This document shows, piece after piece, positions 872-15,359 of a stretch of 46,067 bases of DNA. Source of the DNA: Bacillota bacterium. Lineage in GTDB: Bacteria; Bacillota; DTU065. The stretch lies in the NCBI GenBank assembly GCA_018435125.1, contig JAHDNZ010000071.1, positions 1-46,067 on the forward strand, in the 5' to 3' direction. Each line of letters starts with the position of its first letter. Positions within the stretch are counted from its first letter, which is position 1. Under the pieces are notes generated by a model. It was not told the origin of the DNA, searched no databases, and worked only from the letters and a program-made list of their open reading frames with translations. Both the position numbers and the translations under genes were made by a program.

Positions 872-1768
872 TTATTTCCGTTTGACTGGAACAAAAACCG
901 ATGCGCAATTCGCCTGTCTAAATCGTGCGATGACCTTTCGGCTGTTATCGAACCTATAATCGGGATGGGAGGAAAAATATAGCTTATCCATGTGGTTGAA
1001 TGCTACATCATAGGGCATGGACGGATTATCTCCGTTAAATTCTTTTTGCGTAATATGGACGTATAATCCACCGGGTAGTGTAACTTTTTCAACGCTGTCC
1101 GGCAAACCTTCAAAAGAGCTGACACGGGAGCCGAAACAGCTTTTGTAACTGTTCTCCCAGTCAACCGGAAATCCGTAGAAGTCGCCTTGATTGTACCTTG
1201 CCAATCCGGTTTTATAAACCTCAGCTGCCACTTCAAAATAATCAAATATACACTTATCTCCTTCTTCACCGTGAGGACGGGTACAACAAGCGATTTTCCA
1301 TGGCGGCAACAAAACAGGCTTGACCTCAAAGGTATCAAAACGGTCACTTTCCTTTTCCGGCTTGCGGATAGGCTCATATTTAGTCAGCAGATCGCCGCCT
1401 GCATTCCATGTGTTCATGGGGAATCCCCAAAGATTAAAAATGTAATCCGTGTCATTACGGAATCCGCTGATAAAATATTCGTCCGCGTGCATTCGCTCGC
1501 CGTAACCGATTCGTCCCTCACGCTTTTGTTCGTTGATTTCCATCTTCGCATAACGGCAGGTAGGAAGCGTAAGTGTTGCTGTATGCTCCGGTAAAAATTC
1601 CGGCAGATTATCAAGACTGTCAACAAGTACACCCACAATCACGTTGTAATTCCCATCACCGTGGACATCACAGCGTGTGCTGATAATTTCGGATTCGCTT
1701 AGGTTTACACCGAGAGTTTCAGCAAGAAAAGCGATTGTACCCTCGGAGATGTATTTCTTTACAATCAT
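872..1768 (-). CDS. GyrI-like (AraC effector-binding type) protein, 298 aa
   Basis: The C-terminal half (about residues 145-298) has the pattern of GyrI-like small-molecule-binding domains: FEVKPVLLPPWKIACCTRPH, then VEKVTLPGGLYVHI, then a PYDVAFNHMDKLYF segment and a final strand ending VFVPVKRK. The first 140 residues resemble no domain I recognise. There is no HTH, so it would bind a ligand rather than DNA. It is the last gene of the AraC run, 8 bases after the preceding small gene, in another frame and without a clear Shine-Dalgarno. Coupled translation or a frameshift separating it from the 78-residue tagged protein are both possible. Family assignment is moderate and function unknown. 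Confidence 0.6.
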   Translation of the reverse strand: MIVKKYISEGTIAFLAETLGVNLSESEIISTRCDVHGDGNYNVIVGVLVDSLDNLPEFLPEHTATLTLPTCRYAKMEINEQKREGRIGYGERMHADEYFISGFRNDTDYIFNLWGFPMNTWNAGGDLLTKYEPIRKPEKESDRFDTFEVKPVLLPPWKIACCTRPHGEEGDKCIFDYFEVAAEVYKTGLARYNQGDFYGFPVDWENSYKSCFGSRVSSFEGLPDSVEKVTLPGGLYVHITQKEFNGDNPSMPYDVAFNHMDKLYFSSHPDYRFDNSRKVIARFRQANCASVFVPVKRK

Positions 1769-1776
1769 ATAATCGT

Positions 1777-2013
1777 TTAAGGCTTTGCTGTCAAATCTAC
1801 CGATAATGGATATCCCTGACTTTCAAAGCTTACCGGAACCTTTATGCCCACAAGGTTCATTTTCGACCTATCCACAATGGAGCAAAGGTCGTTGACTGCT
1901 TCCACAAAGGTTTCCATTCGGTTCATTTTTTCCATCATATTCAAAATCTCCGGCTTATTCTTCGGACTATAGCTTTCAGGGGCTGGGGTTATCTTTTTAA
2001 CAGGCTCACTCAC
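1777..2013 (-). CDS. 78-aa protein carrying the ESYSPK tag
   Basis: It starts at GTG with GTGAGGTG upstream, and overlaps the end of the preceding gene by 8 bases (GTGAGTGA). Residues 1-27 are the tag (MSEPVKK, then PESYSPKNKPEILNMMEKM). The remaining 50 residues contain a helical stretch (FVEAVNDLCSIVDRS) and a short beta-rich end. No catalytic domain is present, so it is almost only tag. It could be a small partner protein, a decoy, or the N-terminal part of the following GyrI-like gene separated by a frame change. No characterised family recognised. Confidence 0.6.
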   Translation of the reverse strand: MSEPVKKITPAPESYSPKNKPEILNMMEKMNRMETFVEAVNDLCSIVDRSKMNLVGIKVPVSFESQGYPLSVDLTAKP

Positions 2014-3805
2014 AAGCTAACACCTCACAAACTTTTTGTAGAAGCACTATTATCCTTTGATCGATTGCTCGGCATTTCGTTAAAACATCAATCAATAAAT
2101 TTCGTCGTTCATTGTTCGTCATCGTTAATCTGCTTTTTTTACCGTTTTCGCGATGGAATCCAAGCTCAGCATCCTCGAATGCTAAATCTCGTACAGCTTC
2201 GCAATTATGAATCAAATCCGTCAGTTCTGGAAATTCGCCATATGTTTCCGCACACACTTTCAAAAACTCATAAAAATGCAACCGGTTTTCATATAGAATA
2301 ATGAACTGGGGGAACACAGGAAAATGCATATAGAAAACGTCACTGTTTTCAGCGTTGGCCTGTTGCAATAATGCGATCCAAGCATCATAAATTCCTATCC
2401 CGGCTCCTTTTAATTTGGTAAAGTCCATGCAGGGCGATGGGGTGGTCATCATTTCAAGCGCTTGTTTGAGAGATTGACGATACATGTCACGGGGTTGGCG
2501 TATTTCACCTGTATCTTCAAGGATTAACAGCCGCTTCACATGGGCTGTCCGGTTCTTGCGTTTATAATATTTTTGGAAATTGAAGGAGCAGTTCTTTTTG
2601 TCATCTCCATCCAAAAAAGGACAGCAAAACAGTGTTTTGCCTTCTTCGGCATACCCAAAGACAAAATGCATATCCTTGTATTCCTTTGGCTCTATGATAA
2701 CGGTTTTCTCGCTTGAAACTGCAGTACAGACATAATCACGCACTTGCGCTTGTGCCCAATCCGAACAGTCAACGACCTGTAGCTTTATGCCGTATAACCC
2801 AAGGCAATTCTGCAAATGATCGCCTTCAAAAAGCTCCGAATAGTCAACCCCATACGCTTCAGTAGAAAGAGCGCCTTGTATGCGGTATTGCAAATCATCG
2901 TTGATTTGTTCGCCCTTTTCGTTCAACCGGGATTCTTTTCCATAGAATAAGAAAACAGCCGAAAATATAGCCGGGTATGCATTGGAATGCGGCCATCCTA
3001 CCCCGGTGTATGCGGCGGTCTTTCCTTTCGGCTTGATTCGGTATTGCGGAGGGTAGCGTAGTTCGTTCTTCTTTACGGTTTCCATCATGTTTAATATCTC
3101 TGGTTTATGTTTCGGGTAATAGCTTTCGGTATTTGTTGCTTCCCATTTTTCTTTTGTAATAAGCATTTTACATCCTGTAAACTCAATAGGATTTCCATGT
3201 TCATCGTTAACAAAAGAGGCTGATTCACGTATTTCGGTAATTTCCATTCCGAGAGCTTTCAGTGGTGCGATTTGTTCTGCGCATTCAAGCGGATTCCCGG
3301 CTGTTACGCCATTGACGCCCAATTTTTCGAAGGCGTATTGTGTCATGAGAGATAATGCTTCGGTATCAAGGCTGTTGTCCTGATAGGTGGTGTGCCATAC
3401 ATGCCCCAAATCCAAAATGCCCTCATCATTTACATTGTTGTAAGCGATAAAACCAATCAGCTTCATGGACGGTTTCAAGCAGACTGCAAAGTAGATATCT
3501 TCACCCGCAAAATATGCGACAGCGTTTTTACATCCCTCGTAATCAGTCGGCCACTGGATGTCATAATTCCGCATAGATGAGTTCATTCTGTCATTTGCCA
3601 ATTCGCATACTGCTTCGGCGTCCTCGATGGTGAATCGACGGATAATCAGCCTGTCGGTTTCCATGAAAAACGGCTTGTTTGCACGTTCGTAAACCAGGGC
3701 TGTATCACCATTTATCTTTTTCGCCAGCTTTAATATTTCCGGAAGCGTGCGAGGCGAAAAATCCTGCGGGAGGTTCTCACAGTAAAACTTTTTTACTGTG
3801 TTCAT
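2006..3805 (-). CDS. Tagged fusion: GNAT acetyltransferase plus BtrH-like domain, 599 aa
   Basis: Residues 1-30 hold a diverged tag (DFSPRTLPEILKLAKK). Residues 47-219 are a RimJ/RimL-type GNAT acetyltransferase (ETDRLIIRRFTIEDAEAV at the start, LIGFIAYNNV in the core). Residues 226-244 are a second, near-perfect tag (TESYYPKHKPEILNMMETV). Residues 250-599 look like the domain of the two upstream proteins. Where those have Cys this one has SNAYPAIFSAV, with no Cys, but it keeps a His in DMHFVFGYA (H380). The fusion suggests acetyl transfer and the BtrH-like step share a target or scaffold. Its ATG lies 2 bases after the upstream stop, with GAGGAT inside that gene. The substrate is unknown. 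Confidence 0.65.
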   Translation of the reverse strand: MNTVKKFYCENLPQDFSPRTLPEILKLAKKINGDTALVYERANKPFFMETDRLIIRRFTIEDAEAVCELANDRMNSSMRNYDIQWPTDYEGCKNAVAYFAGEDIYFAVCLKPSMKLIGFIAYNNVNDEGILDLGHVWHTTYQDNSLDTEALSLMTQYAFEKLGVNGVTAGNPLECAEQIAPLKALGMEITEIRESASFVNDEHGNPIEFTGCKMLITKEKWEATNTESYYPKHKPEILNMMETVKKNELRYPPQYRIKPKGKTAAYTGVGWPHSNAYPAIFSAVFLFYGKESRLNEKGEQINDDLQYRIQGALSTEAYGVDYSELFEGDHLQNCLGLYGIKLQVVDCSDWAQAQVRDYVCTAVSSEKTVIIEPKEYKDMHFVFGYAEEGKTLFCCPFLDGDDKKNCSFNFQKYYKRKNRTAHVKRLLILEDTGEIRQPRDMYRQSLKQALEMMTTPSPCMDFTKLKGAGIGIYDAWIALLQQANAENSDVFYMHFPVFPQFIILYENRLHFYEFLKVCAETYGEFPELTDLIHNCEAVRDLAFEDAELGFHRENGKKSRLTMTNNERRNLLIDVLTKCRAIDQRIIVLLQKVCEVLACE

Positions 3806-3807
3806 AA

Positions 3808-5040
3808 TCAGTTATCCTCTTCATAAGCCATCAGGATTTCATCACAAAGCCCGCCCATTTTCCTCAAAATCTCGGCAATTTGTATCCGAAACTCATGCTT
3901 TCGGAAATTATCCATTGACGGAAAGAAACCGCCGTGTAGCGTCCAGATTTCTTGCCTGTAATTCTGCATTTTTTCATAGAGCGGCAGTAGCTTTACAGCC
4001 ATTGACAAGTCGGGATATTGTTCGACAGCATCTTTGAAAAAATCATATGCTGAGCTTGTACATACACAGCAATAGGGAGAGCAATGTAAATTCCAACAAA
4101 TATCGCCCAGTTCATCATCATTTTTATCTTCAAAATAGGAATCTGTTTCCAGTGTGTCAGCCCAAACTCCAAACGCTGTTTTTCCAAAAACATAACGTCC
4201 GCCATCACCCTCAGCCGGGAGCAATGACAGAAAAGCGGGTATAGAATCAATCACGCTTTGATAAATCTGCCGCCTATCAGGCTTTTCAATTTTATCTCCG
4301 GCAAAAAACAAACCTTTCGTGGTGTCAAGACCGTGTGTAATAGTCGAATAACCATATTCGTCCACAGACCCTTCCGGTAAACGTTCCGGACCAGTATAAA
4401 GATTGACATACAGCACATCATTTTCATCGTAGCCGCCTATTAAGCAACCTTCTCTTAAGGGGTCAAAATGGCTTCTCCCATCAGGTGACACACCACTCAA
4501 TGTAACCTTGAGTAAGGTTACATTTCCCATTCCCCAAGCCAGAACAGGGATACCTTTATCAACAGAGGCTTTAATGGCGTTCATCACAGCACGAAAATCC
4601 TTTTTGATTTGTTCGGTGGAAAGATAGATGCAATCATATCCGAAAGCAGCGTATGCTTTTTTTACAAATTGCGGTGTAAAGAAATAATTGGTCACACCGC
4701 TGTCACACTGCACATTGTTCGGATTACCTTTTTCAGCGGCGTACAGATAAGTGAAATTATCGCCGGTAAAGTTAGCGTAGAAATGATAATCGTCAATTTC
4801 AGAGCCGAGCTTTTTACCCATTGAACAAATAGCCGAACACAAAAAACAATTTTCCCAATTTTGAATCCTGCGATATTCTTTTATTTTATTTGATGTACGA
4901 GGTGGTTCACCCCCTGCAAAGGGATCGGCAATGGTGTCGGATGCAAAAGCAGCATATTCCGCCATCGTTACAATTTCAGGTTTTGATTTTGGGGAATAGC
5001 TCTCTGGGATGGAGTTTATTTTTTTAACAGATTCGTTCAT
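3808..5040 (-). CDS. Tagged papain-like (BtrH_N-like) protein, 410 aa
   Basis: The start chosen is the ATG at 5040, because GGGAGGG lies 6 bases before it; an ATG 15 bases upstream lacks this. Residues 1-27 are the tag (MNESVKK, then PESYSPKSKPEIVTMAE). At 61-79 is NWENCFLCSAICSMGKKLG, which resembles the nucleophile helix of C39/BtrH_N papain-like folds (C65, C68, C72). The later strand EGCLIGGYDEND stands where a catalytic His would be expected, but has no His. BtrH in butirosin biosynthesis transfers an acyl group from a carrier protein to an aminoglycoside; the same reaction here is only a guess. It follows the upstream tagged gene after 2 bases. Confidence 0.6.
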   Translation of the reverse strand: MNESVKKINSIPESYSPKSKPEIVTMAEYAAFASDTIADPFAGGEPPRTSNKIKEYRRIQNWENCFLCSAICSMGKKLGSEIDDYHFYANFTGDNFTYLYAAEKGNPNNVQCDSGVTNYFFTPQFVKKAYAAFGYDCIYLSTEQIKKDFRAVMNAIKASVDKGIPVLAWGMGNVTLLKVTLSGVSPDGRSHFDPLREGCLIGGYDENDVLYVNLYTGPERLPEGSVDEYGYSTITHGLDTTKGLFFAGDKIEKPDRRQIYQSVIDSIPAFLSLLPAEGDGGRYVFGKTAFGVWADTLETDSYFEDKNDDELGDICWNLHCSPYCCVCTSSAYDFFKDAVEQYPDLSMAVKLLPLYEKMQNYRQEIWTLHGGFFPSMDNFRKHEFRIQIAEILRKMGGLCDEILMAYEEDN

Positions 5041-5042
5041 TT

Positions 5043-6239
5043 TTATCCCTCCCAATTCTCCAAAACATTTTTAATTAATATCCGCGCCTGTTTTTCAAAT
5101 TCTTTGTTTCCTTTTAGAGCCACCGCCAGTTCTTTCCGTCGCTGTGCTACGGTAAATGTGGCTGACCTAAAGTCTGGTGTGCCGTTAAAAACAGGTGTTG
5201 TTTCGTTATATGGTACGACTGCCAGAAGATTATCAACCATGCTTTTATAAATCTTTGTTACTTCGGTCAATATTGCTTTATTTTTTCCATCTAGTAAAAC
5301 GATGCTGTTTTCAAGATAGACATACGCTGCATGGCGGGCGTCCAGCAAGGATCCAATATGATAGCAGTCATTGCCACACTTTTCCTTGTATTCTGCGTCG
5401 CTCAATTCAAATCCGGAAATCAACACATCATAGGCATCATATCCAAATTTGTGCGATTCGGTTGGTTTGTGCTCGAACATCATAATACACGTTTCAAGAG
5501 AAACCTTTAACGCTTGCTTATGCGGGATAGATTTGCCTTTTTTATCGTAAAAGCGTGTTAACGCGCTTGGAATCAAACCTGGAAACCCGCTTTGATAAAA
5601 ATAGTTATTTTCGGTGAAAATTTCATTTTCAGGAACTATAGGAGATTGGTTTTCAATCGTTTTTTTGGTCGGCTCGTAATGCTGACAATCAAAATAAGTG
5701 CGTCCAAAAAACTTATCTTGACCGTTCTCGACAGCGTAACCACAGGTAAGTGTCCATTCCGGTGCCCCTCTGCCGCCGACCAATAAAATAGGAATCCCGC
5801 TTTCAATACTCTTTTTTGCTTGTGCGACGATTTCTTTTTCATCGCTTAGCGTGTAAACAGATATACCCAGCGCATCGCCGACATTCTTTTCACACAGCTT
5901 GCCATTTTGTGGCATTTGACTGCTGGGATCCCAGTCGTCCCGCATAAGGGCCTGCCAGCACACGCCGGATAGTCCCATCACTTCCTCATAGGAAATCGGA
6001 ATCCCTGTAGCGTTTAGGAGAGCAGTAATGCAGCCACAATAGGAATTGTCTAGCCACTGTCCCCATTTCAAAAAGGGTACTCCGTCAATATAGCTGCCGC
6101 CACCTTCAGATTTGACCGAATAAGCCATCTCCTTCCTTGCCCTTGTCGCTTCCTCCGCCATAGCTAAAATATCCGGTTTGTGTTTCGGGCTATAGCTCTC
6201 TGGACTTTGTTCAAAAATTTTCTTGATAGCCCCACTCAT
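5043..6239 (-). CDS. Tagged papain-like (BtrH_N-like) protein, 398 aa
   Basis: Starts at ATG with AAAGGAGGTG upstream. Residues 1-29 are the tag (MSGAIKKI, then PESYSPKHKPDILAMAEEA). Residues 59-79 (WGQWLDNSYCGCITALLNATG) resemble the Cys-bearing helix of BtrH_N/C39 folds, with C68 and C70. The following PISYEEVMGLSG fits the usual 'loop then small helix' of these proteins. At the expected His strand the sequence is PEWTLTCGYAV, with E161 and W162, so a standard Cys-His dyad is not evident. The C-terminal 170 residues are largely helical. It is the first structural gene after the AraC regulator. Family assignment rests on motif pattern only. Confidence 0.6.
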   Translation of the reverse strand: MSGAIKKIFEQSPESYSPKHKPDILAMAEEATRARKEMAYSVKSEGGGSYIDGVPFLKWGQWLDNSYCGCITALLNATGIPISYEEVMGLSGVCWQALMRDDWDPSSQMPQNGKLCEKNVGDALGISVYTLSDEKEIVAQAKKSIESGIPILLVGGRGAPEWTLTCGYAVENGQDKFFGRTYFDCQHYEPTKKTIENQSPIVPENEIFTENNYFYQSGFPGLIPSALTRFYDKKGKSIPHKQALKVSLETCIMMFEHKPTESHKFGYDAYDVLISGFELSDAEYKEKCGNDCYHIGSLLDARHAAYVYLENSIVLLDGKNKAILTEVTKIYKSMVDNLLAVVPYNETTPVFNGTPDFRSATFTVAQRRKELAVALKGNKEFEKQARILIKNVLENWEG

Positions 6240-6293: not shown

Positions 6294-7574
6294 TTATCCG
6301 TTTTTGTCATTTTTCAATCGCTTATAGATTTTCATACGAATATGTTCGTTATCATATTTTCCGTTTAAGGTTTCATACACTGCAAAAACAGGGGTGTTTT
6401 CGTGGGGGATTGCATTGTTAGCAAGCCACAATTCCATCTTCGCTGCACCCATACAGATATCACCCAAACGGTCGTCGGGCAGCACAGCATACCGACCCGC
6501 TGGGATATGCGTGATTTTCAAATCATTGTTGTTTGATAGCTTGAAGCCACTGCCGCATTCTATTCCGCACCCGCAAACATCATCAGAAACACAAACATAA
6601 AATCTTTGCGCATTTCGTATTAACAGCGGGTGATACTCTTGCAAATAAGCCATCACCTTTTCCGATGCTTTCCGCTCGGCGTTATATCCGCTTTCCCTTG
6701 CTATGAGAAAAGTCATTTCAGGAACGGTGGTTATGGTAATATGCTGTTCCTGTTTTCGCTTTTTAACAGGCAAATACAATTTTAATTTGCAAGGGGAGAG
6801 AGCGTTTCCCTCTTTCCGGTTTGGAAAGATATATTCTTCAAAATAAGCACTCTCTGATTCTTCAAACATGCTTGTGGACAGCCAAGTATTGTATAGATAA
6901 TTCCAAGCTTCATTGATTTCCGGTTCATTATAATTAACAACACAGGTGGCATAAAAATCTGTTTTGCCTATACTCGTGTTGTTATTCGCCTGCTCTGCCA
7001 TCACTTCATAGCAAAACTGATTCCCGATTTGTTTTCCGTTCCTACCAAATACCCGACCCGTTATTTCAACCAATGACGCAACGGCTTTATCCTCAATACC
7101 AATCAAACAGGAATCATAAAATCGGGTTGTCGCACATTCGGGTATAGTTTCCGTACCGACTTTGACCGCAAGGCTGACGCTACTTATATCAAAGGGATAA
7201 AAGTAATAATATGTATCACTCTGCCGGTATTCCAAAGGGGTCATGCCTACAATGCTTTTGAACAGCTTATGAAAAGCCTGTTGGGTTTGCAAGCCGCTTT
7301 CTTCGGCAATGATGGCAAGAGATAAATCTGAGCTTTTGATTTTTTCGCAAGCGTTTGAAATGCGGCGTTTGCGGATATATTCCTTTACCGAATGACCTGT
7401 ACAAGCATAAAAGTCCCGGTATAACTGGCTTGTTGAAACAAAGTGCCGTCCGGCAATGCTTTCTGGCGTTAATTCTTCCGCTAAGTGTTTTTCAATAAAG
7501 GGAAGAACATCGCGGATATATCGCAGCTTTTCGTTCAGCTTGTATTTGGCGGTGGTTTTTCCTGTGGTTATCAT
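6294..7574 (-). CDS. AraC-family regulator with GyrI-like sensor domains, 426 aa
   Basis: Residues about 20-120 are a two-HTH AraC DNA-binding domain: LTPESIAGRHFVSTSQLYRD, then SLAIIAEESGLQTQQAFHKL, then GMTPLEYR. Residues 130-426 appear to be two tandem AraC-effector/GyrI-like halves, the second running from ITITTVPEMTFLIARESGYN to the C-terminus. The DNA-binding domain comes first, as in Rob/SoxS-type regulators with attached sensors. GGAAGGAGGG precedes the ATG, and a MerR-type promoter lies just upstream. Position and direction suggest it controls the tagged genes downstream, possibly in response to a cationic or amphipathic small molecule (inference from GyrI/BmrR-like domains). Confidence 0.8.
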   Translation of the reverse strand: MITTGKTTAKYKLNEKLRYIRDVLPFIEKHLAEELTPESIAGRHFVSTSQLYRDFYACTGHSVKEYIRKRRISNACEKIKSSDLSLAIIAEESGLQTQQAFHKLFKSIVGMTPLEYRQSDTYYYFYPFDISSVSLAVKVGTETIPECATTRFYDSCLIGIEDKAVASLVEITGRVFGRNGKQIGNQFCYEVMAEQANNNTSIGKTDFYATCVVNYNEPEINEAWNYLYNTWLSTSMFEESESAYFEEYIFPNRKEGNALSPCKLKLYLPVKKRKQEQHITITTVPEMTFLIARESGYNAERKASEKVMAYLQEYHPLLIRNAQRFYVCVSDDVCGCGIECGSGFKLSNNNDLKITHIPAGRYAVLPDDRLGDICMGAAKMELWLANNAIPHENTPVFAVYETLNGKYDNEHIRMKIYKRLKNDKNG

Positions 7575-7762
7575 AAAACGATGTCCCTCCTTCCAGTGTA
7601 TTTCGAGTCTACCACTTGACCGTGGGGTAGTGTAAGGCTTTCAATCAACCCGATCTGCTCATAATAATGCAGGGTGCGGGTAGAAATGGAAAGCTTCTTT
7701 GCTATTTCTGTGGTAAGGTTTATGATGGTTTTCCTTTCTGAATGTAGTCCCGAAGCTTGCAT
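7571..7762 (-). pseudogene. merR N-terminal HTH fragment
   Basis: The frame contains INLTTEIAKKLSISTRTLHY then YEQIGLIES, the first helix-turn-helix of MerR-family regulators, which normally continues into a wing and a coiled coil. Here the homology stops at IGLIES and the rest reads through promoter DNA to a stop overlapping the AraC start (ATGA). It is therefore a broken merR of about 35 recognisable codons. A MerR-type promoter at 7809-7839 sits in front of it, as an autoregulated merR would have. The exact start is unclear because no ATG lies next to AGAAAGGAAAACC. Confidence 0.65.
7606..7635 (-). promoter_or_regulatory. MerR-type promoter candidate in front of the AraC gene
   Basis: On the minus strand TTACAC (7635-7630) and TAGACT (7611-7606) are 18 bases apart. 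The spacer contains an imperfect dyad, CTACCCCAC facing GTGGTAG. Overlong spacers with a central dyad are the hallmark of MerR-activated promoters. The predicted transcript begins just upstream of the GGAAGGAGGG ribosome site of the AraC gene. Confidence 0.5.
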
Positions 7763-7890: not shown

Positions 7891-8451
7891 TTATTTGCTT
7901 CTGAAATAATCCTCAGCAAGAATGGCATATCGAACGCTGTCGCAAATGCCCTGATTGTTTATATCGTCTTGCCGCATTGTCCCCTCGTATTTTAAGCCGC
8001 ATTTCAACATCACTTTACCCGAATTTGGATTCTGCGGGTCATGTCTGGATTCAATGCGATTCACGCCCACATCTTCAAAGAAAAAGCGAATCAACTCGGA
8101 AAGTGCTTCGGATGTATAACCGCTGTGCCACCACTTTTGTCCGATGCAATATCCGATATGAACCATCTTGATATCATCACGCTGTTCGACTACAGCAATG
8201 CTCCCAATCGGCTCTCCAATTTCTTTAAGAACAATCGCCCAGCTATAATGGTTTGTTTTTTCATATAAGGGCAGCCAACTGTCAATTACCACTTTGGAAA
8301 CAGACGCATCCGAATGGGTCGGCCAAGTCAGGAACTTTGTAACCTTCGCATCATTTGCCCAGTTTTTAAACATAGCTTCTGCATCATATGCGGTGAATCG
8401 CCGCAGAATCAGCCGCTGGGTTTCAAGTGTAACTGTTCCTTTATGTGTCAT
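7891..8451 (-). CDS. GNAT N-acetyltransferase, RimJ/RimL type, 186 aa
   Basis: The start chosen is the ATG at 8451, which overlaps the upstream stop as ATGA and begins MTHKGTVTLETQRLILRRFT, the usual RimJ/RimL opening. The acetyl-CoA core is EIGEPIGSIAVV followed by HIGYCIGQKWWHSGYTSEAL, and the end has NPNSGKVMLKCGLKYEGTMR, the standard C-terminal helix-strand of this family. It would acetylate an amino group on a protein or small molecule; the substrate is not evident. It is the last gene of the run beginning at 11788, and resembles the GNAT part of the 599-residue fusion nearby. Confidence 0.85.
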   Translation of the reverse strand: MTHKGTVTLETQRLILRRFTAYDAEAMFKNWANDAKVTKFLTWPTHSDASVSKVVIDSWLPLYEKTNHYSWAIVLKEIGEPIGSIAVVEQRDDIKMVHIGYCIGQKWWHSGYTSEALSELIRFFFEDVGVNRIESRHDPQNPNSGKVMLKCGLKYEGTMRQDDINNQGICDSVRYAILAEDYFRSK

Positions 8452-9551
8452 TTCAAATTTACCTCGTTCACAAGATGTAAAAACTGCACCGCCCAAAAGG
8501 TCAGGTCACATTCGAGGGCATATTTGCGTTTATGGTCAACTTCAAGCCGCACATCTACATACGCGGTCGGAAAAGGTGAAAAACTTGTCTTTTTGAATTT
8601 TGTCCTCAGAATACCGTCTGCATCTATCGCTTCCCGTATGTTTTCGGCAGATTCACGAATCACATCAACCCTTTCACCTACACCAAGCATAGCAATTTCT
8701 GTTAAGGGACGACGGTACATAACCGTTTCTACTTTATCTGCAATAAACGGCTTAATTGGGCGTCCCAAAGCCCAAAGCGGCCCGTAATATCTGTTGCCAA
8801 TCTTAACAGAAACACTATTATCATCATGCATGATGTCATTTAAGTGATTCAGCGCGTTGGTCATTGCCTGTATACTTTTCGGTGTCCGCCAAGACTGTGT
8901 GTAAGCAAGCGTTGTCAAGTGATATGAACATGGTAAATATGTGTCCGCTTCAACATATGGATAGTTATTCTTGGGATTCTTGCTTTGCCTTATTTTTGTA
9001 ATTTCATCCAGCGAATTTAACGATAAAAAACTGCAAAAAGCGTCAAGTGAAATATTCAGAAATGATTTTACATATTCATCGTCGCCATAGCCAAGTAACA
9101 CCTGCAAGGTGTATAACAAAACCATCAAGCTGCTTCCGCTTTTCAATCCGATAAAACGCGTGTCATAACGCACAATCTCAGGCGGGATATATGAAAACTC
9201 TTGTCGCAGCGTTTCTTCATCACGCATGGCGTCAATAAAATTTACAATCATTGGGTGAGTTTTCGGTATTGCGTAGTTTGATAAGAGCCGCGCTGCCACT
9301 TCTCCATCTTGCAACGGAGTTTCGTGCAAAACCGTACCGTGCCAATTTGACCAGCTATGCGCTCCGCTGCCGATATACCCGTTTGGCTTGACATAGCTTT
9401 GTACCAGCTTGAAATTCGGTGTTTGATATATCTGCTCCAACAGATTTTCTTCCTCTGTTTGCGTGAGATTTTTCAGAATCTCTTTCCTAAGCCGATACTG
9501 AATCACGGGACCGGCGTTTCCCAACAGAAAGTCGATTGATTTTTCAAACAT
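8448..9551 (-). CDS. Alpha/alpha-toroid-like protein, 367 aa (paralog of the next gene upstream)
   Basis: All-helical protein beginning KSIDFLLGNAGPVIQYRLRK. It shares this opening and overall layout with the upstream 349-residue protein (KTIDFLFENACVNIRYLIKR). Motifs such as NGYIGSGAHSWSNWHG followed by a GEVAARLL helix resemble the helix pairs of squalene-cyclase/prenyltransferase toroids, but no DxDD or zinc-site motif is visible. A cyclase activity is therefore not claimed. It lies 3 bases after its paralog and overlaps the GNAT start by 4 bases, so it is translationally coupled to it. Fold assignment is tentative. Confidence 0.5.
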   Translation of the reverse strand: MFEKSIDFLLGNAGPVIQYRLRKEILKNLTQTEEENLLEQIYQTPNFKLVQSYVKPNGYIGSGAHSWSNWHGTVLHETPLQDGEVAARLLSNYAIPKTHPMIVNFIDAMRDEETLRQEFSYIPPEIVRYDTRFIGLKSGSSLMVLLYTLQVLLGYGDDEYVKSFLNISLDAFCSFLSLNSLDEITKIRQSKNPKNNYPYVEADTYLPCSYHLTTLAYTQSWRTPKSIQAMTNALNHLNDIMHDDNSVSVKIGNRYYGPLWALGRPIKPFIADKVETVMYRRPLTEIAMLGVGERVDVIRESAENIREAIDADGILRTKFKKTSFSPFPTAYVDVRLEVDHKRKYALECDLTFWAVQFLHLVNEVNLK

Positions 9552-9554
9552 TTT

Positions 9555-10604
9555 TCATTCCCCCAGAATAGGCCAGCAAGTATTGATAACACGGTATATC
9601 AAATCACATTTAACAGCAGTCTTGTTTCGCCAATTCGGTTCAATACCCCAAAGATACCGAAAGCCGGTCAATGCTTTATCTGTCATAATATCCATCAAAG
9701 TGTCATTTTCAAGCATTTCAGCAAGAAATTCGTAGGGTTGGGTTGTTTGTATCGCCCATTTTGGATGTCCGGATAAATCTCTAATATAGAACCCAAATTG
9801 AAAACGGTTTTTTGTATTATGCACCATGCGTTGTAAATCTGATATTTCAATAGGACTAAGAGACTGCCATCCATAATTAAACGGTCCCATATAACTTCCG
9901 CCAAACTCCTTTGGTTTGCGGAACATAATATAACCGTCTATATCCTTCATAATCGAATAACTGTTTTTCATAGCTGCTTTTGCGGTTACTAAATTCTCGT
10001 CTGATTGCCAGCTAAGGGTATTTGCCAATATGCCGATATGATTTGCTCCGGGGAATTTTACAGAGGGTTTATAATACTTGAATTTTGATCCCTGCTTTGT
10101 AAAATCATCTATATTTTTGTACGCAAGTGCGCCACACAAGTGGTCAAATGATAATTTAATTTCATCGGACAGGGGTTGTTTGTCCTCCGGAAAATTTGTT
10201 GTCGATAAAATCCAAGCTATAATAGCTTTGTTTCCACCGCGACCGTCCGCGTCCAATGCGTTCCCTGCGGCAAAATGATTTTTATGCTGGTTTGCTATAT
10301 CCGGTTCAGTTAAAGCGTTAATAGCCTTTTGTACAGGATTGCTTTTTACCTCTACTCCTGAACGAAGTAGAACACTCATAAGGGTATCCATTCCATCGCT
10401 ACCGTGTAATTCATGGCCCAACCATCCGTCCGGATGTTGCTTTGCCAAACATTTCTGAACGACTGGTGATTGCATGATTTCGGTTTGCATATCTTGCATT
10501 TCGGGTGTGTTAATTGATATTTTTAGAATATCGCGCTTAATTAAATAGCGGATATTGACACACGCATTTTCAAAAAGAAAGTCGATTGTTTTTGAAAAGT
10601 TCAT
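9555..10604 (-). CDS. Alpha/alpha-toroid-like protein, 349 aa
   Basis: Paralog of the downstream 367-residue protein; the two align at the N-terminus (xTIDFLFENA, then IRYLIKRDIL) and at the DGWLGHELHG versus NGYIGSGAHS segments. The rest is mostly helical with several Trp- and Gly-containing loops (DGYIMFRKPKEFGGSYMG, FRYLWGIEPNWRN). The side-by-side pair suggests a heterodimer after duplication. No catalytic motif is recognised. It starts at ATG 38 bases after the preceding gene, with AGGAGGAC upstream. Confidence 0.5.
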   Translation of the reverse strand: MNFSKTIDFLFENACVNIRYLIKRDILKISINTPEMQDMQTEIMQSPVVQKCLAKQHPDGWLGHELHGSDGMDTLMSVLLRSGVEVKSNPVQKAINALTEPDIANQHKNHFAAGNALDADGRGGNKAIIAWILSTTNFPEDKQPLSDEIKLSFDHLCGALAYKNIDDFTKQGSKFKYYKPSVKFPGANHIGILANTLSWQSDENLVTAKAAMKNSYSIMKDIDGYIMFRKPKEFGGSYMGPFNYGWQSLSPIEISDLQRMVHNTKNRFQFGFYIRDLSGHPKWAIQTTQPYEFLAEMLENDTLMDIMTDKALTGFRYLWGIEPNWRNKTAVKCDLIYRVINTCWPILGE

Positions 10605-12142: not shown

Positions 12143-12733
12143 ATGAAAATACTAATTGTTAGCGATAAAGAAACACCATCTCTCTTAAATGAGTCAAAGG
12201 CTCATCTTCTTTTGGATTTAGACTGTATTATCTCCTGTGGCGATCTAAAAGCAGGATATCTCAACTCGCTGGTTGCAAAGACAGGAGTACCGCTTTTTTA
12301 TGTAGCAGGCAATCATGATTTTCATTATAAGTATGAACGCCCAAATGGCATTAATCTTGACCTCAAAATCGTCGAGTTTAAAGGTATGCGTATGGTTGGT
12401 TTTGAAGGAAGCATGCGTTATAATCACAAAATTTATCAGTACACCGAAGCTCAGATGAAAAGACGCGTTCAGAGTGTGGGTTATAAGTTGCTTTTTAATA
12501 AAAAGGTGGATATAGTCGTCACCCATGCTCCTCCTGCCGGGATCTACACGACTGACGATCTCTGCCATCAAGGCTTTATGGCCTACCGTAAATTTATCGA
12601 AAAATACCAACCGCGTTTCTTTTTGCATGGTCATTATCATTTGGAATATGGACCCAAACAAAAAAGAAGAGAAAATATTCTGGGCAATACTACCTTAATC
12701 AACTGTATCGGTTATCATATCTTGGAAATTTAA
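12143..12733 (+). CDS. Calcineurin-like metallophosphoesterase, 196 aa
   Basis: Metal-binding motifs appear in the family order: CGDLKAGY (about 33), AGNHDFHY (about 56), THAPPAGIYTTDD (about 131) and HGHYHLEYG (about 160). The usual N-terminal D-x-H is replaced by VSDKET, so one metal ligand is atypical. The length fits small YfcE/MJ0912-like single-domain phosphoesterases. The substrate cannot be told from sequence. It heads a plus-strand run with the ParB-like/ferredoxin and Sir2 genes. Confidence 0.8.
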   Translation: MKILIVSDKETPSLLNESKAHLLLDLDCIISCGDLKAGYLNSLVAKTGVPLFYVAGNHDFHYKYERPNGINLDLKIVEFKGMRMVGFEGSMRYNHKIYQYTEAQMKRRVQSVGYKLLFNKKVDIVVTHAPPAGIYTTDDLCHQGFMAYRKFIEKYQPRFFLHGHYHLEYGPKQKRRENILGNTTLINCIGYHILEI

Positions 12734-12783
12734 TTGAAGGAGGTGAAAAGGTCCAGCTCGGCCCACGAGCAAAACCTAATAAA

Positions 12784-13797
12784 ATGGTACTTGGCTTTGG
12801 CAAAAAAAATGTAGTGAAAAACTTTGCAGAGGAATATGCCAGAGAAAAAGTCGTAGCCCGTCGTCAACTGGGGGTTTTAGAAGTTGAGTTAGATAAGATT
12901 GTGGGCAGTGTTGGACGCTGGCGCGATTTTGACCGCAAATTCCAGATCCAAACAACTCATAGCCCCATTAGACTTCGCTCCATCGAAGCTGCTATGATTA
13001 CCGGCAAAGAACTTCCCCCTATTGAATTATATAAAATAAAGGATGACTACTATATTGTAGATGGCAACCACCGGGTAGCCGCTGCCAGACGACTTGGCTG
13101 GAAAAAAATCAAGGCCCGAGTCACTGAATATCTTCCTTCAGCAGATACTCCCGAAGGAATTTTGGTGCGTGAACAATCATATTTTAGTTTTAAAACCGGT
13201 TTAACCGACGTTAAGTTAACTGAAATAGGTCATTACCAGATTCTATTAAAAGAGATTGAAGACTACCAAAGCTATTTAATTGAAAGATTTAAAACCGACT
13301 TTAACCTTCGCCAAGCTGCCGAAGATTGGTATGCGATGATCTATTATCCTCTGGCTCAAACTATTGAATCAGAAGAACTTCTGGAGGAGTTTCCTGGCCG
13401 CACAACAGCGGATCTGTTTCTTTATATTGTAGAACACAAAAAAAGACTGGCGGCTAGCGAAGGACGGGAGCTCACTCTTAGTGAGGCTTTAAGAGAATTC
13501 TGCTCACCCACAACCAAATCCTTAACTCAGACTATAATGGATCTTTTTACTAAACTGGTAGTCTCTAAACCGGCATGTATCGGCTGTGATCGCTGTCTTA
13601 GGGTCTGTCCGGTTGATGCTATTATCAAACAAGACGGCCTCTATCATATCCTTGAACACTGTATTCGTTGCAATCGCTGTGTGGCAGAGTGCCCTACCGA
13701 GGCCATTAAACCCGCTTCCGGTAAAGCTAACCCTGCCATCATTCAAAAAGGAGGTCATGTAAATAAAGAAGCTAGCCAAACTGCTAAAGATGAGTAA
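12784..13797 (+). CDS. ParB/sulfiredoxin-like domain fused to a 2x[4Fe-4S] ferredoxin, 337 aa
   Basis: Residues about 30-115 form a ParB/Srx-type domain: LPPIELYKIKDDYYIVDGNH, then RVAAARRLGWKKIKARVTEY. A helical middle part (130-255) follows. Residues 260-310 are a bacterial ferredoxin with CIGCDRCLRVCPVDAI and CIRCNRCVAECPTEAI, i.e. two complete Cys sets for two [4Fe-4S] clusters. ParB/Srx folds bind or hydrolyse nucleotides, so a redox-coupled nucleotide-handling role is possible but unproven. The ATG is 39 bases from a perfect AAGGAGGTG (12737-12745). Between them is a GCTCG/CGAGC hairpin, and the frame stays open with no standard start; see findings. It overlaps Sir2 by 8 bases. Confidence 0.8.
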   Translation: MVLGFGKKNVVKNFAEEYAREKVVARRQLGVLEVELDKIVGSVGRWRDFDRKFQIQTTHSPIRLRSIEAAMITGKELPPIELYKIKDDYYIVDGNHRVAAARRLGWKKIKARVTEYLPSADTPEGILVREQSYFSFKTGLTDVKLTEIGHYQILLKEIEDYQSYLIERFKTDFNLRQAAEDWYAMIYYPLAQTIESEELLEEFPGRTTADLFLYIVEHKKRLAASEGRELTLSEALREFCSPTTKSLTQTIMDLFTKLVVSKPACIGCDRCLRVCPVDAIIKQDGLYHILEHCIRCNRCVAECPTEAIKPASGKANPAIIQKGGHVNKEASQTAKDE

Positions 13798-14473
13798 TTA
13801 TACTGTTGTTTTAACTGGCGCGGGGATCTCTACCGCCAGTGGAATACCAGATTTTAGAGGTCCTCAGGGTCTTTGGAAGCAAGTAGACCCCTTTGATGCT
13901 CTTTCTGTCAATGCTTTTTATAGAGATCCTAAGAAGTTTTACCAGTTTTATTTTCAAATGCTTAAGGATTTTTCTAAAGCCTCTCCCAACAAGGCTCATC
14001 TTGCCATCTCTAAGCTGGAAGAAACTGGATTGATTAAGATGGTTATAACTCAAAACATTGATGAACTTCATCAAAGAGCAGGCACTAAAAATATCTGTGA
14101 AATTCATGGGACTAGTTTTAAAGGTTTTTGTCTTAACTGTGGGAGGATAAAACCCCTTACCCCAGGTGAGTTAATACCTTACTGTGATAACTGTGGGGGC
14201 TTAGTTAGACCTCAAGTGGTACTTTTTGGTGATAGTATGCCAGATGACTATTTATTGGCAGAAAAAGAGGCTGCTAAAGCTGATTTAATTTTGGTTGTTG
14301 GCTCTAGTTTACAGGTAAGTCCTGCCTGTTATCTCCCTTTGCGTGCTAAAGAGATCGCCATAATTAACCTCGAACCAACTCCTTTTGATGCTCAGGCAGT
14401 CTTTCTCTCCCACAATAAAGCTGAGCTAGATTTGCCTCAACTACTTGAATTCCTTAATTTGGAAGCCAAATAA
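13790..14473 (+). CDS. cobB: Sir2-type NAD-dependent protein deacylase
   Basis: Sirtuin motifs are complete: LTGAGISTASGIPDFRG (NAD binding), TQNIDELHQRAG, the catalytic His in EIHGTS, four zinc Cys (CLNCG and CDNCGG), and VVGSSLQVSPA. It would remove acyl groups from lysines using NAD. The ATG start leaves only 8 residues before GAGIS. The frame upstream adds IKKLAKLLK, a helix that sirtuins normally have, and an AAAGGAGGT lies 7 bases before the ATA codon at 13763. The true start may therefore be upstream. The overlap with the ParB/ferredoxin gene implies coupling. Confidence 0.92.
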   Translation: MSNYTVVLTGAGISTASGIPDFRGPQGLWKQVDPFDALSVNAFYRDPKKFYQFYFQMLKDFSKASPNKAHLAISKLEETGLIKMVITQNIDELHQRAGTKNICEIHGTSFKGFCLNCGRIKPLTPGELIPYCDNCGGLVRPQVVLFGDSMPDDYLLAEKEAAKADLILVVGSSLQVSPACYLPLRAKEIAIINLEPTPFDAQAVFLSHNKAELDLPQLLEFLNLEAK

Positions 14474-14478
14474 GCAGG

Positions 14479-14555
14479 AATGCCTAGAAGTTTTTGCGAA
14501 ATGCTTTTTAACTGGCAAAAGGGGTGTAGGCTAAGTGAAAAAACTTCTAGGCATT
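14479..14555 (+). repeat. 17-bp perfect inverted repeat spanning the start of the EEP gene
   Basis: AATGCCTAGAAGTTTTT (14479-14495) is perfectly complementary to 14539-14555, which lies inside codons 2-7 of the next gene. The right arm is followed by a T-run to 14558. Pairing would enclose the GTG start and the region before it in a 43-base loop. It could terminate sir2 transcripts or control entry into the downstream gene. Confidence 0.7.
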
Positions 14556-15359
14556 TTTATAATAATTGGTATAACCTGTCTTCTAAGCAGATTCGCTCTT
14601 ATTACATTTCAGGAAGATCTCTTTACGGAAGTTCAAACAGAAACACCCTCCCCTACAATCGCAGACAACGAACTTCTTACGGTGGTTGCCTACAATATCC
14701 ACCATGGCACAGATATGTTTGAAAATTTCCGCCTCAATGAAATGGCTCTTCTCCTAAGCGATGCCGATATAATTTTTCTCTCAGAGATTGACCGTACCTT
14801 CGGCAGTCGCTCCTATTACCTAGACCAACTCGAAGAATTCCAAAATCTTACCGGATTAAAACACCAAGCTTATGCCCCTACTTTAGAGAAAACGGGCCTT
14901 TTTAATATAAGAGGTACATATGGTATCGCCATTTTAAGTAGGTTTCCTATTATCGACACCACTATTTATCCGCTACCGACTATTCCCTTTGATGAACCAA
15001 GAGCTGCCTTAAAAGTGACTGTAAGCTGGGGAAATCAAATTCTTACTATCTGGGCAACCCATCTTTCACCGGTTTTTGATACCAGAAAGCAACAACTTGA
15101 ATATCTAAGCGTTTCTGCTTATGATGCCGACTTATTGCTAGGTGATCTAAATGCTAGACCGGATGAAATAAACTCCTTAAAAATAGCTTTGGCTTTGAAA
15201 AATACCGAGACGACACCAACCTTTCCCTCAGATAACCCCAATGCTAAGATCGATTATATCCTCTATGGAAACAAACTGAAATTACAAACCGCTCAAACCA
15301 TTCCCTCTTTATATTCCGATCATCTACCGGTTAAAGCAAGCTTTTACTTAAGCAACTAA
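14535..15359 (+). CDS. Secreted/anchored endonuclease-exonuclease-phosphatase (EEP) family protein, 274 aa
   Basis: It starts at GTG and has an N-terminal hydrophobic segment (KKLLGIFIIIGITCLLS), so it is exported or anchored. EEP motifs are in order: AYNIHHG (about 53), FLSEIDR (about 80), YGIAILSRFPI, WATHLSP, LLGDLNARPDE, KIDYIL and SDHLPVKA. The family includes phosphodiesterases, DNases and sphingomyelinases using a metal ion, and the substrate here is not evident. It lies 61 bases after sir2 across the long inverted repeat and ends at a bidirectional terminator. Confidence 0.82.
   Translation: MKKLLGIFIIIGITCLLSRFALITFQEDLFTEVQTETPSPTIADNELLTVVAYNIHHGTDMFENFRLNEMALLLSDADIIFLSEIDRTFGSRSYYLDQLEEFQNLTGLKHQAYAPTLEKTGLFNIRGTYGIAILSRFPIIDTTIYPLPTIPFDEPRAALKVTVSWGNQILTIWATHLSPVFDTRKQQLEYLSVSAYDADLLLGDLNARPDEINSLKIALALKNTETTPTFPSDNPNAKIDYILYGNKLKLQTAQTIPSLYSDHLPVKASFYLSN

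Follow-up and report, generated by a model that had tools for sequence, protein, structure and literature searches.

Cass2 is an independent effector-binding protein, that is, a stand-alone, laterally mobile domain of the GyrI/AraC_E_bind type which is proposed to form complexes with regulators (PMC3048380). The GyrI-like protein STM3175 traps albicidin (PMC10414762). With Rob/BmrR-like regulators (PF06445), a helix-turn-helix (HTH) and a GyrI-like sensor domain are found in one chain. With the docking domains of polyketide and nonribosomal peptide synthases, with dockerin-cohesin pairs, and with the encapsulation peptides of microcompartments, a short element is common to unrelated proteins and has cognate variants per system. 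We consider here a short peptide, the ‘tag’, as found in a 46,067-nucleotide stretch of a Bacillota genome (GCA_018435125.1, contig JAHDNZ010000071.1, positions 1 to 46,067; ‘the window’). This tag, with a core of about 17 residues and the consensus PESYSPKxKPEILxMAE, is carried by proteins of a tight minus-strand operon, which consists of an AraC-type regulator gene followed by genes for proteins of 398, 410, and 599 residues and then by open reading frames (ORFs) of 78 and 298 residues.

The resemblance of this locus to those systems is partial. PF14526 matches many of the tagged modules, at scores above or close to its cut-off. Cass2, as far as described, has no shared tag, whereas here two further unrelated folds bear the same tag. 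The regulator of the operon similarly differs from Rob/BmrR-like proteins in having two GyrI-like domains, and in being accompanied by separate tagged modules. The likeness to docking peptides holds if the tag indeed is a docking element, but this tag matches no Pfam model and no solved structure. The literature, too, yielded nothing on the tag or on operons of such layout.

The tag is a real and selected element, one which is neither an artifact nor the first helix of a known domain, and it is rare. The original prediction, made from the letters of the window without database searches, had placed five copies of the motif between 1777 and 6239, and all five are found there, in the proteins named and on the minus strand. 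It had also described these proteins as otherwise different, and so they are: When the tagged proteins are compared with each other by BLASTP, the tag stretches align (e.g., residues 1-28 and 1-39; E 8e-9 to 5e-6), and outside of the tag there is no significant similarity. Against the 2.55 Mb genome, a profile built from the five tags recovers those five copies at E 4e-23 to 1e-16, with the next best match at E 0.55, thereby excluding chance; there is no sixth copy in the whole genome by that profile. Among 24 tags scanned against Pfam no described family was matched, the best E value being 0.036 and for one member only, nor was there a sequence match to the tag among solved structures.

Conservation of the tag is of the peptide and not of the DNA, as the tag-core DNA has silently diverged. 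That is, the 51-base cores are pairwise identical at 23-39 of 51 nucleotides, and among the residues that two cores share, 3-7 positions differ silently. A fresh duplication thus is ruled out as the origin of the tags since silent sites differ, just as had been argued from the window. Ratios of nonsynonymous to synonymous differences per site (pN/pS) of 0.05-0.42, together with high silent divergence, amount to purifying selection. Over the full tag set (40 aligned tags from 12 operons in 10 genomes, two of the loci, L022 and L023, being near-duplicates), both core prolines are kept in 40 of 40 tags and the isoleucine is kept in 39 of 40.

Tags are carried by modules of at least three unrelated folds, i.e., GNAT (PF13302), GyrI/Cass2-like (PF14526/PF06445), and several papain/BtrH-like families, here types A to H. 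Matches to GyrI-like or Cass2 models above the Pfam cut-off are seen with window positions 872-1768, with the AraC protein, and with modules of L023, L067, and others. Two tagged modules can be found within one chain, as with the 599-residue window protein and with proteins of 612 (L020), 625 (L021), 428 (L025), and 764 residues (L068), and L023 has three consecutive GyrI-like modules, each preceded by its own tag, of which the middle one is frame-broken. GNAT modules keep their own version of the tag, PQDFSPxTLPEI, the exception being the GNAT of L053, which has instead the version of its locus, ESHSPKDVPEI. The diverged third tag of the window is of this GNAT version, which recurs on the GNATs of L020, L024, and L025.

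The tag is not part of one fold, as untagged papain-like relatives exist. One such relative, L004, is found in the same genome (contig C12), has 526 residues including an extra N-terminal region, and is 27-28% identical to type A; its gene is followed by one for a 214-residue protein. Another is an 862-residue MerR regulator (L067, 10919-13507) with a C-terminal papain/BtrH-like domain that is 27% identical to the type B protein of the window, and which sits between the two tag operons of genome G727. A third, read by eye from sequence only, would be an XRE fusion in L020. Directly downstream of that locus's tag operon (12409-14600) there are an XRE HTH, a frame break, and then stretches that are papain/BtrH-like and kinase-like, the latter with VIHGDMHPG. 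The possibility that the tag is simply the first helix of the BtrH_N domain throughout, which had been named along with the original prediction as its undoing, is therefore ruled out: The tag is also on GNAT and GyrI-like modules and is missing from the untagged BtrH-like relatives, L004 and the 862-residue MerR protein included.

As to what these modules do, they look like putative sensors or binders rather than enzymes, judging from their motifs, that is, from a loss of catalytic motifs combined with the drug-binding kin of the GyrI-like modules. GNAT enzymes bind acetyl-CoA via a loop with the motif Q/R-x-x-G-x-G/A. In five tagged GNATs that loop is replaced by YQDNSLDTEA and relatives, while the loop is intact, QKWWHSGYTSEA, in the window GNAT that has no tag (7891-8496). 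Of about eleven papain-like modules read, four have Glu and one has His at the position before the GY motif, and most modules have Glu, Ser, Arg, Thr, Phe, or Asn in place of the expected His. In L004 the Cys of the catalytic position is replaced by Ala.

The label ‘BtrH-like’, also inherited from the original prediction, is based on motif order, on weak matches to Peptidase_C39_2 (E 0.01-0.05), and on low-confidence fold matches, but Pfam BtrH_N itself matches none of the tagged papain-like modules scanned. For types A and B, AlphaFold gives models of low confidence, with mean predicted local distance difference test (pLDDT) scores of 48 and 55, respectively. With both of these low-confidence models, Foldseek gives AziU2-U3 chains as the best match among PDB structures (probability 0.97-1.0, E 0.003-0.03, template modeling score about 0.3), and CtaG is among the matches of one model only. 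AziU2-U3 and CtaG are antibiotic-biosynthesis proteins. The modules here differ from BtrH, AziU3, and CtaG, however, in lacking a Pfam BtrH_N match, in mostly missing the His, and in having no biosynthetic neighbors.

A link between the tag and an AraC/GyrI-type regulator had been proposed from the window, and the association turns out to be stronger than was claimed. An AraC gene with two GyrI-like domains, AraC-(GyrI)2, opens 11 of the 12 tag operons, some of which run into a contig end. In front of the twelfth (L024), 48 residues of such a gene are left as a remnant. Conversely, when 461 genomes were queried with AraC-(GyrI)2, only G000, G727, and G748 were positive, the G748 copy ending at a contig edge.

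These regulators form three clades, and the variants of the tag track them. Clade I regulators occur with the tag PESYSPKxKPEI. Clade II, with support of 100/99 and 33-39% identity to clade I, consists of the regulators of the second operons of G727 and G798, where the tag is one residue shorter, PESYSP-xKPEI or PESFNP-KKPEI, in seven of seven copies; no clade I tag is shortened in this way. Clade III (L053) occurs with the tag ESHSPKDVPEIL, i.e., ESHSPKD(V/M)PEIL, but is a long branch of unsure placement. Clades I and II are both represented in G727 and again in G798, by a single regulator each. Within G727, three pairs of module bodies are common to both operons (88%, 72%, and 73% identical), and each member of these pairs has the tag type of its own operon. 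Adjoining a clade II tag operon there is, in addition, a MerR regulator with a pentapeptide-repeat C-terminus (L068, 5364-6686).

Modules, judging from comparisons of their bodies with the tags masked, are exchanged at the tag boundary. The GNAT body of the window, for example, shares 90% identity with its counterpart in L025 and 79% with the one in L020, yet the module behind the GNAT's next tag differs from locus to locus, being papain-like type C for the window, type A for L020, type G for L024, and GyrI2 for L025. GyrI2 (67-77% identical) in turn comes after papain-like type B in L021, after GNAT in L025, and after another GyrI module in L023, and it is free-standing in L053 and G798. Gain and loss of modules also seem to be frequent at tag loci, where decay is common given the broken modules of L023, L024, and the first operon of G727. 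Remnants of this sort, i.e., a truncated tag, an AraC tail, and a split papain-like module, are at L023, 13502-13600; L024, 9786-9929; and L067, 3842-5698.

Public genomes brought the total to the 10 genomes and 12 operons considered here, with the regulator beside the tag genes. A scan of 84,980 species yielded six loci, L020 to L025, all from metagenome-assembled genomes labelled Oscillospiraceae, Peptococcaceae, or other Clostridia/Firmicutes, and a search of the families of those genomes yielded G687 (L053), G727 (L067 and L068), and G798 (L069 and L070). Four other genomes of the class have no tag, nor do 397 other genomes of the phylum beyond chance-level profile matches. Three of those phylum-wide matches (E 0.009-0.04) were opened and proved to be an XRE regulator, an unrelated 514-residue protein, and a permease-like protein, that is, chance matches. 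Phage, plasmid, and viral collections had no tags; a single DNA-pattern match, L019, is at most a candidate. Tag-positive genomes are sparse in Clostridia, with 2 of 300, 2 of 63, and 2 of 38 in three families. Such low counts per family, along with high protein identity between families, suggest a sporadic lateral spread of these operons. In G687, a resolvase-like ORF (L053, 63-395) is separated from the tag operon by a few kilobases, a hint of mobility.

Table 1. Genes of the tag operon and tag cores in the window.
Feature	Position	Strand	Remarks
AraC-type HTH plus two GyrI-like domains, first gene of operon	6294-7574	-	HTH_18 E 3.5e-17; Cass2 E 1.8e-9
Tagged BtrH/papain-like module, type A, 398 residues	5043-6239	-	
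Tagged BtrH/papain-like module, type B, 410 residues	3808-5040	-	Orthologues 73-85% identical
Fusion, tag-GNAT (degenerate)-tag-papain-like type C, 599 residues	2006-3805	-	GNAT matches Acetyltransf_3 (PF13302), E 1.3e-13
Tagged GyrI/Cass2-like gene, frameshifted	872-2013	-	ORFs 1777-2013 (78 residues) and 872-1768 (298 residues); Cass2 E 1.1e-7
Tag 1, core ESYSPKHKPDILAMAEE	6150-6200	-	N-terminus of 398-residue protein
Tag 2, core ESYSPKSKPEIVTMAEY	4954-5004	-	N-terminus of 410-residue protein (start 5040); five orthologues retain this core
Tag 3, diverged GNAT version, core QDFSPRTLPEILKLAKK	3716-3766	-	N-terminus of 599-residue fusion
Tag 4, core ESYYPKHKPEILNMMET	3077-3127	-	Internal to 599-residue fusion, at GNAT/papain-like junction
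Tag 5, core ESYSPKNKPEILNMMEK	1927-1977	-	Start of broken GyrI-like gene

Coordinates within the window are collected in Table 1. The second GyrI-like copy of the AraC protein is a weak match (E 0.0014). The 78-residue ORF had been taken originally for a small partner protein that is almost only tag, an adaptor in other words, but that idea is ruled out: The ORF is a frameshift fragment, the front of a GyrI-like protein of about 380 residues. One such protein is found both in L020 (10001-11152) and in L021 (3762-4904), and residues 33-69 of the L020 protein align to the 78-residue piece while residues 83-381 align to the 298-residue piece. The frame slips at about 1775-1810 of the assembled sequence, and this slip may be either biological or an assembly error. 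A PADLOC search for anti-phage defense produced no meaningful match. Just upstream of the AraC gene, at 7571-7762, is a 63-residue MerR HTH stub, probably the leftover of a MerR regulator. At 8448-10604 there are two adjacent, related toroid-like proteins of 367 and 349 residues, without Pfam match, with a 72% relative of the first also found in L024 (7789-8907), shortly upstream of the tagged genes.

What might the tag be for? We infer that it binds, that the AraC-(GyrI)2 protein is what it binds to, and that the modules sense ligands. That is, the tag would dock exchangeable modules of ligand-binding type, i.e., sensor modules, to the AraC-(GyrI)2 regulator of the operon or else to a common assembly, a reading to which we assign a probability of about one half. 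The central idea of the original prediction is kept in this reading but amended in three places, with a broken gene instead of the small partner, with domains that are degenerate, and with the regulator as the most probable partner. The tag here would be an address label at the protein level, N-terminal to or between exchangeable modules, with these modules consisting of GyrI/Cass2-like drug-binding folds along with papain/BtrH-like and GNAT folds that are without catalytic motifs. The label would recruit modules to a shared partner, which most likely is the AraC-(GyrI)2 protein encoded first in the operon, and a single DNA-binding protein could in this way take its input from a variable set of small-molecule sensors that are not covalently fused to it. 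Modules would be traded between operons at the tag boundary, with the tag staying matched to the resident regulator. Module types also occur untagged but fused to an HTH nearby (MerR-papain-like in L067, XRE-papain-like in L020, and XRE-GyrI-related in L070), and these fusions may be a covalent version of the same arrangement. More tentatively, and at less than even odds, this may be an undescribed form of modular one-component regulation in which AraC-(GyrI)2 possesses a peptide-coded socket, in which pseudo-enzyme and drug-binding modules plug in via the tag, and in which different tag-socket pairs coexist per cell while modules are traded by recombination at the tag.

Several further observations bear on the docking of modules to the regulator. 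In its favor, with the 88% identical pair of G727, silent divergence is higher in the tag than in the body (0.74 versus 0.24; Fisher p 0.005), which suggests that the body moved while the tag stayed, but that contrast involves only about eight silent sites. Within an operon, the likeness of tags exceeds expectation (p 0.0002), and the same holds within a body family (p 0.0002). Within clade I, however, same-operon and different-operon tag likeness is 0.749 versus 0.739, i.e., there is no operon effect, and the pairing signal thus is between clades rather than between operons. Three clades are few for a pairing of tag with regulator, and co-inheritance of neighbors could be a part-source of the correlation. 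In both AlphaFold models the first 50-66 residues, including the tag, are below 50 pLDDT, with a helix drawn at about 21-37, and the amphipathicity of the tag helix is inconsistent. Apart from the silent divergence of the tag and the overall likeness of tags within an operon, these points count against docking to the regulator.

The main rival to docking at the regulator is that the modules are assembled by the tag with each other, or on a scaffold encoded elsewhere, to form a drug-trapping complex, a ‘sponge’, with AraC-GyrI merely switching the operon on. Drug trapping by GyrI-like proteins can confer resistance (PMC10414762), modules of binding type are numerous (up to six per operon), and frequent breakage and exchange of modules are as in resistance arrays. 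Tag type follows regulator clade, though, which a regulator-independent complex would not need, and we view the sponge as rather unlikely. That the tag is a mere linker or recombination seam, carried along by gene fusion and cassette exchange without a binding role, is less probable. Fusions do put the tag exactly between domains, and exchange does occur there. On the other hand, both prolines are invariant while silent sites have strongly diverged, making a functionless seam less likely, and the tag is found as well at free N-termini, where a linker is unneeded. Nor would a seam be expected to lose the same single residue in all clade II tags despite their mixed bodies.

The original prediction had the tag gathering papain-like proteins and an acetyltransferase around one substrate or scaffold. 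Taken as working enzymes, these would carry out, for example, an acyl transfer on a natural product, as with butirosin. The AziU2-U3 chains and, for one model, CtaG speak for this, but the acetyl-CoA loop is degenerate in all five of the tagged GNATs read and intact in the untagged one, and the expected His is replaced in most papain-like modules. Moreover, none of the ten window genes scanned is for a carrier protein, a ligase, or a member of another biosynthetic family. We hold such a gathering of enzymes to be improbable, more so than a seam. As the tag is at N-termini and also at module junctions, it might instead be a processing or degradation signal, i.e., a protease site or degron by which fused modules are separated or kept short-lived. 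But no protease is seen in the operon, a conserved proline-rich stretch plus following helix exceeds a typical cleavage site, and tag variants track the regulator clade, leaving this the least probable of the alternatives by our estimation, and hardly to be expected.

If the tag is a docking label, then these bacteria can add or swap sensors on a transcription factor without resort to fusion proteins, and docking would explain why pseudo-enzymes of papain and acetyltransferase fold are piled beside GyrI-like drug-binding domains. At least two natural tag types would then coexist in one cell, representing a testable list of parts for multi-input sensors. The tag itself, meanwhile, is usable as a handle in searching for further members.

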